From positions 20,643-84,642 of the IMG/VR virus record IMGVR_UViG_3300046009_009315: a stretch of DNA of 64,000 bases. One strand, written 5' to 3'. Shown one piece after another: positions 46,659-59,118 of the stretch (positions are counted from its first letter, which is position 1; each line of letters starts with the position of its first letter). The DNA comes from a virus. A program made the translations under genes and the position numbers. Below the pieces are notes generated by a model, which did no database searches, was not told the DNA's origin, and saw only the letters and a list, made by a program, of their open reading frames with translations.

Positions 46659-47037
46659 TATTTTTTAATGTTGGTTTAAGTGCATTATAATTTGCATTGT
46701 ATCTATTTACATCTCCTATTTTATTAGCATCCATAAGCATGAAGGCTTTTTGATTTAATCTAAAATTTTCAGATTGTTTTGCGGAAATTACTCCCTGTAT
46801 TCTTGATCTTGATATTGATTCATCTTTTCTTAAGACTGAGTAATTGCTTTTTTCTGAGTTTAGCATTTTAATCATCTTTCTATTAGATTCTATTTGAGAT
46901 TTTGCGATATGATATTCTGCGCCTCTGGTAACATTATCATATTTCTGATATGTCGTTTGACCATGAGAGCAACTAATCAATATATATATAAATATAATTG
47001 ATAGTAGAATCTGCTTAATATAATTTTTATTTTCCAT
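46651..47037 (-). CDS. Predicted lipoprotein (128 aa)
   Basis: Start at MENKNYIKQ (47037), with GAAGGA upstream. Signal peptide ending in LISC (Cys near residue 23), then a coiled-coil-like mature part. Located between the GMP reductase-like gene and the SEC-C gene. Possible spanin- or exclusion-type lipoprotein; not proven. Confidence 0.72.
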   Translation of the reverse strand: MENKNYIKQILLSIIFIYILISCSHGQTTYQKYDNVTRGAEYHIAKSQIESNRKMIKMLNSEKSNYSVLRKDESISRSRIQGVISAKQSENFRLNQKAFMLMDANKIGDVNRYNANYNALKPTLKNNE

Positions 47038-48127
47038 GAGCAAATCCCTCATATAAAGAATTACTTGTTACTTTAATTGCTTTTATCTTGTCTGTCCATA
47101 AGCCGCCTCTCATATCTTCCATTGATCTAAACCCAAGATAACTCATAGCACTTCTTAAACCATTAGCAAAATCATAAACTACATCTTCGATAGTTTTATC
47201 TTCAATAAGAGGTATCAAAGTATTATCTCCTTCTACGAATAAATTTCTCTTCGTTCCATCGGATAGTTCATATTCTTCAACAACATCCTTACTAGCCATT
47301 CCTCTATATCTTGCATATCTTTTACCATTATTTTCTACAATGTTTTCTTCATCAACTACGTCAGCTAACCCAGCGAATATCCTGCCGCAAATTACTGCGT
47401 CTGCACCGCTCGCAATAGCCTTTACTAAATCTTTTGGATATCTAATACCGCCATCTGCTAGTATACTAGGACGATTCTCTTCTTTAGGATTTTCATGTCT
47501 AAAATAATCTAGATTTGCTAATTGAAAATTTCTAACAGCTTTCCAAGCATAATATAAACCTGTAACGCTTGGGCATCCTATACCTGTTTTCATTTGAGTT
47601 AAGCACATACTTCCAGGACCAATCAGATGTCTAAATCCATCTGCCTTAAGATTAGCAAGTCTATATACACTTTGCTTTGTAAGCGTATTTCCTACGATAA
47701 TATCCTGTTTATAATTTGACTGCTTGTAATCAATAAGAAAATTCTCGACTTGTATAGATAAACCATTTGCAGTATCTAGAAAAAATATGTCAGTATATGG
47801 AGACAATTCTTTTATTCTGTCTTTGGAATCTTTAAGGCCAATGGCATTTATAGAAAAATTACTTTCATCTTTAATTTTTTTACTTTTTGCTACCTGTTCT
47901 TCTATTGACATAAATCTATGCAAAACTCCAGCTGCGCCAATTTTATTTATCTTAATACAGGATTTAACAGAAGAAACTGTATCCATTGGAGAAAGTATAA
48001 TTGGAATCTCTACATATTTATTCTTAGAGATCTTAGTTCTAGTAGAAATCTCTTTTCTAGAGACAATATCAGAAAAATTTGGTAGTAAAGTTATGTCATC
48101 ATAACTTAAACTTTCTTTGAATTCCAT
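47027..48127 (-). CDS. IMP dehydrogenase/GMP reductase family protein
   Basis: 366 aa TIM barrel without CBS domains. SYDDITLLPNFSDI, IILSPMDTVSS, AAGVLHRFMS, then the active-site loop GPGSMCLTQMKTGIG with its catalytic Cys, DGGIRYPKDLVKAIASGADA and YRGMASKDV. The KTGIGCP after the Cys is closer to GMP reductase (KTGVGYP) than to IMPDH. It would convert GMP to IMP or the reverse. Upstream TTGACA, 17 nt, TATATT, 6 nt. Confidence 0.87.
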   Translation of the reverse strand: MEFKESLSYDDITLLPNFSDIVSRKEISTRTKISKNKYVEIPIILSPMDTVSSVKSCIKINKIGAAGVLHRFMSIEEQVAKSKKIKDESNFSINAIGLKDSKDRIKELSPYTDIFFLDTANGLSIQVENFLIDYKQSNYKQDIIVGNTLTKQSVYRLANLKADGFRHLIGPGSMCLTQMKTGIGCPSVTGLYYAWKAVRNFQLANLDYFRHENPKEENRPSILADGGIRYPKDLVKAIASGADAVICGRIFAGLADVVDEENIVENNGKRYARYRGMASKDVVEEYELSDGTKRNLFVEGDNTLIPLIEDKTIEDVVYDFANGLRSAMSYLGFRSMEDMRGGLWTDKIKAIKVTSNSLYEGFAHGK

Positions 48128-57128: not shown

Positions 57129-57338
57129 ATGGAAATAATCAAAAATAAGGCTAAATGGTCAGTTTACTCTCAAAAATGCATTAAGCATTATAATATAGAT
57201 AATGATAATATTTATGATGAACCTAGCGAATATCCTTGTATTGCAATACCACAATTAATTTCGGACATAAATGGCGCAAGAGTTAAATTTAATTTTGTTT
57301 ATAAAAAAGATTGCCAAAAACTTTTAAAAGCTTTATAA
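57129..57338 (+). CDS. Hypothetical protein (69 aa)
   Basis: Lies between structured RNA B and the tmRNA. TATAAT 8 nt before the ATG. FVYKKDCQKLLKAL at the C-terminus. Not recognised. Confidence 0.7.
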   Translation: MEIIKNKAKWSVYSQKCIKHYNIDNDNIYDEPSEYPCIAIPQLISDINGARVKFNFVYKKDCQKLLKAL

Positions 57339-57368
57339 TGTGTAAAATAATATACGTTCTTTCTCATT

Positions 57369-57755
57369 GGGCCAGATTTGGTTTCGATTTTAGGAATCGG
57401 AATTAGAATGCAAGTAGAGGTTTAGGTGGGTCTCTTTAAAAAGCCTTAAAAGTATTAACTGCCAAAACAGCTAAATACAAAGGTCATATCTCTGCTAGAG
57501 TTTCTCTAGTCGAGGAGACCGCTTCTGTAGCTTAAGTTCTACAGCGTGATTACCATGACACATCTAATGGATAATTGCGTATTTAGATGTCTTTATTTAT
57601 AAAGTTTTTTTATTCTTTATAGGTTTAGTATTCAAAATAAAATCGCTGAGTATGTTTGTTTTTTCTCTATACAAAGCTAAAAACAAAAAGAACTAAACTT
57701 GTAGTATTTTAATTTAAATTCACTAAAAGAAGCGGTTCGACTCCGCACTGGTCCA
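57369..57755 (+). ncRNA. ssrA: Transfer-messenger RNA (tmRNA)
   Basis: 5' GGGCCAG pairs with 3' CTGGTCC (7 bp, one G-U); the 3' part has a T arm GCGG/CCGC with TTCGACT and discriminator A. After the AAAAAGCC segment comes the resume context TTAACT-GCC, much like B. subtilis TAACT-GGC. The tag frame runs 57461-57535: 24 codons (starting A-K-T-A-K-Y-K-G-H) to TAA, ending ETASVA. With the tRNA alanine the tag is 25 residues, longer than the usual 8-15. No encoded CCA. Rescues stalled ribosomes. Confidence 0.87.
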
Positions 57756-57801
57756 AGTTTATTATTGAGAATATTTATAATTATATTATACTTAAATATT
57801 A

Positions 57802-58353
57802 ATGATTAAAAAAACAAAGATAATTTGTGCCACTTGCAATAAAGAGCATGAAATAAGACTAAGTGATTATAAGAGAAAAATTAAAAATGGACAGGATAAA
57901 TTTTACTGTAGTTTAAAATGTTCTGGAAAAGCTGATTATAAAAATAATCCTCAAAAACTTGAAAAAAATAAAGGCAACATATCTTTATTAAAAGGATATG
58001 AGGCAAATAGATTAGATGAATATAGTCCATTCAAATATTCATTAAATAAAGCTAAATCCAGAAGTAAAGAAAGAGGAGAGGAGACAGATTTAACTTTAGA
58101 ATATTTAAAAGAAATTTATGATAAACAAAAAGGTTTATGTGCATATACTAATATAAAGATGGAAATTCCTAGATCTTCTCAAGATGAAGATATTAAAAAA
58201 AGCCCAACAAAATTAAGCTTAGATAGAATTCATTCTCATACTGGTTATTTTAAAGGAAATGTAGAATTTGTGTGTTATTGTATTAATGTTATGAAAAATG
58301 ATTTTACAAAAGAAGAGATGATAAAATTTATAAATCAAATAAAGTGTAAATAA
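57802..58353 (+). CDS. HNH-type endonuclease-like protein (183 aa)
   Basis: N-terminal Cys pair site (CATCNKEHE, CSLKCSGKADYK) and a C-terminal HNH-like block CAYTNIKM, SLDRIHSHTGYFKGNVEFVC, IN-VMKNDF. Such free-standing HNH proteins are often homing nucleases. Just downstream of the tmRNA. Confidence 0.75.
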   Translation: MIKKTKIICATCNKEHEIRLSDYKRKIKNGQDKFYCSLKCSGKADYKNNPQKLEKNKGNISLLKGYEANRLDEYSPFKYSLNKAKSRSKERGEETDLTLEYLKEIYDKQKGLCAYTNIKMEIPRSSQDEDIKKSPTKLSLDRIHSHTGYFKGNVEFVCYCINVMKNDFTKEEMIKFINQIKCK

Positions 58354-58639: not shown

Positions 58640-59041
58640 TTATCTTACTTCTTTTCTTCCCTTACCTTTATTTAAATTTCTATGAGAATCAGTTAGTGAG
58701 TGGCAATTTGGACATAAAACTTCTAAATTGTTTATATTATTATTTTTAAAATCTCCATCTTTATGATGAATTTCTAATGTGCTTTTGCCTGTTGTTGAAT
58801 TTCTTTTATTCCAACCGCAGATTTCGCATGAGTAGTTCTTTTTGTTTATTAAATAATTTCTAATAAAAGGTCTAATTTGCCCATTTGTTGTATACCCTCT
58901 ATTGTTTCCATTTAACCAGTTTTGTATTTTAACATTGTTTTGATATTTAAACTGGCATGTATTATTACAATAATATTTTATAGGTTTATCACATTCTTTG
59001 TTACAATTTTTGCATTTTCTTCTTGGCTTTCTAATATTCAT
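58640..59041 (-). CDS. HNH endonuclease with N-terminal zinc fingers
   Basis: 133 aa. Start at MNIRKPRRK (59041), 4 nt after a late-type box. N-terminal Cys pairs CKNCNKECD and CNNTC; HNH core CEICGW-x11-LEIHHKDGDFKNNNINNL and VLCPNCHSLTDSH. The His-His and Asn residues form the metal site. Typical phage homing or packaging-type nuclease. Confidence 0.88.
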   Translation of the reverse strand: MNIRKPRRKCKNCNKECDKPIKYYCNNTCQFKYQNNVKIQNWLNGNNRGYTTNGQIRPFIRNYLINKKNYSCEICGWNKRNSTTGKSTLEIHHKDGDFKNNNINNLEVLCPNCHSLTDSHRNLNKGKGRKEVR

Positions 59042-59045
59042 ATAA

Positions 59046-59054
59046 AATATTACA
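59046..59054 (-). promoter_or_regulatory. Late-type promoter box for the HNH gene
   Basis: TGTAATATT preceded by AG, 4 nt before the ATG. Confidence 0.6.
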
Positions 59055-59118
59055 CTCAAAAATAGACCATTTAATAAATAATATTAGGTCTAATATAATA
59101 ATTTTGTATATTATTTAG

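Follow-up and report, generated by a model that had tools for sequence, protein, structure and literature searches.

The window, a 64,000-nucleotide stretch of an 84,642-base IMG/VR virus record, contains a complete one-piece tmRNA at positions 57369-57755 of the plus strand; no second tmRNA was found in the record. The terminase, nrdA/nrdB, rIIA and virion protein genes present in the record identify the virus as a tailed phage. The tmRNA gene, its tag frame and its immediate neighbors are:

57129-57338, plus strand: 69-residue ORF of unassigned function, usually immediately 5′ of the tmRNA
57311-57339, plus strand: sigma-70-like promoter, TTGCCA-17-TATAAT, with 11/12 consensus matches, 29 bases before the tmRNA
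57369-57755, plus strand: tmRNA (ssrA), one-piece, 387 nt, detected by ARAGORN and Rfam RF00023, with no encoded 3′ CCA
57461-57535, plus strand: tag frame from the resume codon GCC to TAA (ARAGORN), preceded by ATTAACT
57802-58353, plus strand: gene for a 183-residue HNH/endonuclease VII-type protein (PHROG phrog_3322, E 6.8e-24), directly downstream of the tmRNA

The promoter-like sequence is the best of 18 sites (shuffles give 11.1) and is a putative promoter. The 69-residue ORF has 33 homologues, in 30 of which the tmRNA starts 234-240 nt past the start of the ORF, and it is 70-94% identical in most relatives; it gave no PHROG match and, despite a fairly confident model, no fold match. A second, different HNH endonuclease gene lies near the tmRNA-HNH unit on the minus strand (58640-59059). 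The window also contains an IMP dehydrogenase/GMP reductase-family gene at 47027-48127 (Pfam PF00478, E 4e-64).

An earlier note on this DNA had proposed a phage-encoded tmRNA with clear acceptor stem and T arm, and had named a covariance-model search as one of the checks. The Rfam model RF00023 matched end to end at 57369-57756, covering model positions 1-374, with a score of 90.5 bits (E 7.3e-34; curated cut-off 47 bits). ARAGORN called a tmRNA at exactly 57369-57755 on the plus strand, with the tag AKTAKYKGHISARVSLVEETASVA followed by a stop codon. Since ARAGORN also called one tmRNA among 100 64-kb windows simulated with matching dinucleotide content, its call is not proof in itself; the Rfam E-value and the covariation described below carry the proof. 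We also considered and rejected a two-piece (permuted) tmRNA, as both Rfam and ARAGORN give the one-piece order on the linear sequence and the permuted reading arose solely from a short excerpt read as a circular molecule. CCA is absent from the 3′ end of the gene, as it is from the tRNA genes of the window.

A structural alignment of 42 tmRNA copies from relatives was used to examine the following elements:

57369-57375, plus strand: 5′ strand of the acceptor stem, GGGCCAG, which pairs with CUGGUCC at 57748-57754 and holds G3 of G3:U70
57748-57755, plus strand: 3′ strand of the acceptor stem and discriminator base A (A in 42/42 copies)
57731-57747, plus strand: T arm, 99% paired in relatives, with two-sided changes in 9 pair types
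57416-57446, plus strand: pseudoknot 1, stems AGAG/CTCT (57416-57419 / 57432-57435) and AGGT/GCCT (57424-57427 / 57443-57446), 100% and 87% paired in the 42 relatives, with compensatory changes
57553-57590, plus strand: pseudoknot 2, stems CCAT/ATGG (57553-57556 / 57567-57570) and ACATCTA/TAGATGT (57560-57566 / 57584-57590), 74% and 100% paired
57598-57642, plus strand: pseudoknot 3, stems TATAAAG/CTTTATA (57598-57604 / 57615-57621) and TTTTATT/AATAAAA (57608-57614 / 57636-57642), paired at 88% and 97% among the 36 class A copies whose 3′ half is their own
57650-57693, plus strand: pseudoknot 4, stems GTAT/ATAC (57650-57653 / 57669-57672) and GTTTTTT/AAAGAAC (57658-57664 / 57687-57693), paired at 97% and 98% among the 36 class A copies, with changes on both sides for 8 pair types of the second stem
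57525-57544, plus strand: helix 5 (CTGTAG/CTACAG), formed around the stop codon of the tag, 100% paired in the 42 relatives and overlapping the Ser-Val-Ala codons of the tag

The acceptor stem was paired in 100% of the 42 relatives, with three pair types changed on both sides. G3:U70, the known identity element for alanyl-tRNA synthetase, was G:U in 42 of 42 copies, whereas acceptor pairs 5 and 6 covaried. The T arm of the window copy has an A-A mismatch at its first pair. In class A copies (those with a tag like that of the window), the four pseudoknots were 73-100% paired, every stem scored above all of its slid controls, and most pseudoknot stems showed compensatory changes. Judged by this covariation, the tmRNA structure is intact and under selection. 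The RNA is almost certainly a working tmRNA. The earlier note was thus right about the tmRNA itself, its acceptor stem and its T arm; neither the lack of a covariance match nor the disruption of pseudoknots or resume codon in relatives, which it had listed as grounds for abandoning the call, was observed.

Searches of virus contigs recovered 12 with the tag-DNA pattern and 76 with a degenerate tag pattern, while a 5′-core pattern that ignores the tag recovered 79, all with 24-residue tags of class A or class B. Seventy-five of the 79 contigs were common to the tag-independent and tag-shaped searches, with 80 found in total. We considered whether the tag-shaped search had an ascertainment bias and rejected this, as the four extra contigs of the tag-independent scan carry class A variants. 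The class A tag, which is that of the window, reads AKTAKYKGHISARVSLVEExxSVA and varies, with a few single exceptions, as AKTAKYKGH[ILV]SAR[VA]SLVE[EMLK][TA]xSVA. Class B tags read AK[TSP]AKLKGSFSLRVSHxKxxLIAA, and their helix 5 has a different sequence (UCGCAG/CUGCGA) in the same place. Two contigs contain chimeric tmRNAs in which a class A tag is joined to a class B 3′ half (L229:382-803 and L230:3713-4132), with pseudoknots 3 and 4 of class B type. Thus, the tmRNA gene recombines, and the chimeras are of the kind that gene conversion would make.

To compare constraint along the tag, we used the 50 distinct versions of class A tag DNA from loci matching the tag-independent pattern, every one of which is open to TAA. 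Pairwise averages of dN/dS over these related sequences, which are descriptive values, were 0.06 for codons 1-8, 0.18 for codons 9-16, 0.50 for codons 17-24 and 1.37 for codons 19-21; the other frames of the same DNA gave 2.1 (+1) and 0.76 (+2). The low dN/dS in codons 1-16 indicates that the tag interior is held as peptide. Since residues 1-16 are kept at the amino-acid level, some protein is likely to read the interior, a part of the tag on which the earlier note is silent. For a tag whose protease is not ClpXP, the Mesoplasma florum ssrA tag, read by Lon, is a precedent (PMC8138137, PMC9097571).

This constraint bears on an alternative in which ribosome recycling is the whole purpose: the tag would serve only to end translation, the fate of the tagged protein would be irrelevant, and the phage tmRNA would supplement or replace that of the host during mRNA degradation. 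The complete tmRNA structure is as expected under this alternative, and published work reviewed in PMC8012679 attributes cell survival to rescue of the stalled ribosome rather than to breakdown of the peptide. However, a mere spacer would not need its interior residues held at the amino-acid level, and we regard recycling alone as unlikely.

At the other end of the tag, the Ser and Val codons (TCT GTA) were nucleotide-identical in 50 of the 50 distinct class A versions. As these codons build the conserved helix 5, RNA structure alone could fix them, and the SVA end is not readable as a protease signal from the sequence. Thus, the earlier proposal that ending in SVA and not LAA weakens recognition by ClpXP is not established.

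The same note had described a tag of 24 codons to a TAA, which is correct, and had called it unusually long. That description holds against bacteria, in which the mode of tag length is 10 residues (PMC11915505); tags of 17 bacteria, drawn from the genomes in our tag-pattern hit list, were 8-22 residues long with a median of 10. It does not hold against phages. Two phages that share a virion protein with the window phage carry other tmRNAs (class C), and a search with the class C tag core recovered 80 contigs (L327-L406) with tags mostly of 32-35 residues that share AEYIFNNAD (for example, AEDNTSDLLAEAEYIFNNADEFLAGVEDYALAA). All 12 of the 12 class C sequences tested were tmRNAs by Rfam. In one class C tmRNA (L253:1494-2190; tag ADNTDSILAEAEYIFNNADQFVGAEEEYLMAA), a group I intron (RF00028) interrupts the T loop, and the exon ends, GGGGTTCAACTC and CCCCTCACGTCCA, restore the T arm; tmRNA genes with a group I intron have been described (PMC11915505). 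The class C tag was also looked for in 397 genomes from a single phylum, to which an Actinomycetota MAG belongs, and was not found. Neither blastn with the locus nor tblastn with class A and class C tags found close relatives among isolated phages. Because tags of this second family reach 32-35 residues, what is new at the window locus is a conserved phage tag together with its HNH linkage, not tag length. In open-licence papers, we found no description of a conserved phage-specific tag family or of an HNH-linked tmRNA.

We asked whether the tag could instead lack phage specificity and stem from a host lineage missing from the sampling, whose ssrA gene the phage took up. Most phage tmRNAs cluster with the tmRNAs of host lineages (PMC9004378), and some bacteria do have long tags, up to 22 residues in our sample of 17. 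On the other side, a scan of 84,980 prokaryote species genomes with the pattern AANTGCNAARNCNGCNAARNNNAARGG found 92 matching stretches, none of which is a tmRNA, although the pattern fixes several codons, so that a host tag differing at these positions, or one from a lineage outside the collection, would escape it. A captured host tag seems improbable to us. Protein similarity gave no host assignment: the nearest relative of the ribonucleotide reductase is from Pelagibacter phage HTVC008M (53%), that of the virion protein is from Synechococcus phage S-RIM32 (42%), and no close relative of the terminase was found among isolates (about 25%).

We next considered the HNH gene, which the earlier note had overlooked. 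Eight residues of the encoded protein (C9, C12, C36, C40, D141, R142, N153 and N162) were invariant in 18 sequences, such that both the HNH residues and the zinc-finger cysteines are conserved. The predicted fold is nearest to the HNH endonucleases PacI and Gme, a weak match (E 0.02). We found 31 homologues, of which 29 start 428-494 nt past the tmRNA start; one of the other two has only 8 upstream bases, and the other adjoins a tmRNA that is cut at the contig end. An HNH gene away from a tmRNA was not found among the 31. The gene was present, at near-constant spacing, in 40 of the 65 class A loci with enough sequence and in none of six class B loci. By genomic context, it occurred in 19/32 class A loci with the 69-residue ORF upstream (context I), 17/25 with minus-strand neighbors (context II), 4/5 in other contexts and 0/3 where the context is not known. 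A tmRNA tree, whose support is weak and which recombination has probably influenced, implies no fewer than 14 changes of context and no fewer than 16 of HNH presence. In four context II loci, the 69-residue ORF lies on the opposite side. Some context II loci, including L236, L224 and L250, have a minus-strand downstream gene with the adenylosuccinate synthetase-like motif GLQWGDEGKGK, possibly PurA/PurZ as judged by eye. No clean empty site emerged, and relatives picked by the virion protein did not help, as this protein occurs in other phages with other neighbors.

The HNH gene comes after the tmRNA in two or more genomic contexts and was not found apart from it, a distribution that suggests spread by homing. 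This pattern is consistent with a free-standing homing endonuclease that takes the tmRNA with it, and the enzyme may thus mobilize the tmRNA; the link could also reflect shared ancestry within one phage lineage.

The neighboring nuclease also raises the idea of counter-defense, in which the phage copy would replace tmRNA or tRNA capacity destroyed by a host defense and the HNH enzyme would be able to amplify the locus. We know of no defense system that cuts tmRNA, and no tandem tmRNA copies were seen. The analogy is with SegB, a free-standing GIY-YIG homing endonuclease encoded beside phage tRNA genes, which amplifies these genes and defeats Septu (PMC13096335). Here too, a nuclease gene adjoins a translation-related RNA gene of a phage, but the window enzyme is of the HNH type, its activity is putative and it is linked to a tmRNA. 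We consider counter-defense doubtful. Least probable is a protective tag that evades the host ClpXP/adaptor route and lets truncated phage proteins or peptides survive. In its favor, the tag ends in SVA and not LAA, and DAS+4, an engineered tag whose end was altered, is stable when its adaptor is missing (PMC8138137). Against it, an RNA helix also constrains the SVA codons, and class B tags end in LIAA and class C tags often in ALAA or LLAA, resembling ordinary degrons.

As a whole, the data are best explained by a functional phage-specific tmRNA with a tag that is read in its interior and that has spread in part with the HNH gene, an explanation we hold to be probable. The RNA would be transcribed from its own sigma-70-like promoter, receive CCA from a host enzyme and be charged with alanine by the host alanyl-tRNA synthetase. 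As a search of 32 phage records with a tmRNA, mostly fragments, gave no SmpB while bacterial controls were positive, host SmpB would have to work with the phage tmRNA; because most records are fragments, SmpB could also be encoded in unsequenced parts of the phages. During infection, the phage tmRNA would free ribosomes stuck on cut or unfinished mRNAs, with each unfinished protein gaining alanine plus the 24-residue tag, and may in this way replace, dilute or redirect host rescue. A host or phage protein (an adaptor, a protease or another protein) would most likely read residues 1-16. Since the interior is the most conserved part of the tag, such a reader is the most likely reason, and proteins with the phage tag would be handled unlike those tagged by the host. 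The gene would persist and spread between related phages partly through the HNH enzyme, by free-standing homing in which the tmRNA is co-converted. A stronger version, in which one specific protein of host or phage reads the interior as a phage-made signal, infection thereby replaces the rescue-tag code of the host with that of the phage, the tmRNA-HNH unit is mobile between phages and class C represents a separate code of 32-35 residues, is possible but tentative.

The window tmRNA shares with one-piece bacterial tmRNAs (RF00023) the tRNA-like domain with G3:U70, the resume codon, a TAA-ended tag frame and pseudoknots 1-4. It differs in being phage-borne and AT-rich, in its unencoded CCA and adjoining HNH gene, and in its 24-residue tag with a conserved interior and an SVA end. 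According to the authors describing the Methylophilales phage Melnitz, about 2% of phage genomes contain a tmRNA (PMC9004378). Melnitz, a tailed phage of an aquatic bacterium, also has a complete tmRNA, but that RNA is two-piece, circularly permuted, of alphaproteobacterial type and linked to a glutamine riboswitch, while the window tmRNA is a one-piece form preceded by a promoter-like site of its own. Mycobacterium phage DS6A encodes a tmRNA-like RNA that lacks a tag frame and inhibits host tmRNA if expressed in E. coli (PMC11915505); the window tmRNA, in contrast, has a complete, selected tag frame.

Accounts of phage tmRNAs have usually gone no further than to describe them as captured host genes. 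The tag described here is conserved across many phages, was not found in the sampled bacterial tmRNAs and is constrained along its interior and not only at its end. Such a conserved, interior-constrained phage tag makes the purpose of a phage-encoded tmRNA testable, and the adjoining nuclease suggests that ribosome-rescue genes, like phage tRNA genes, can be mobile.
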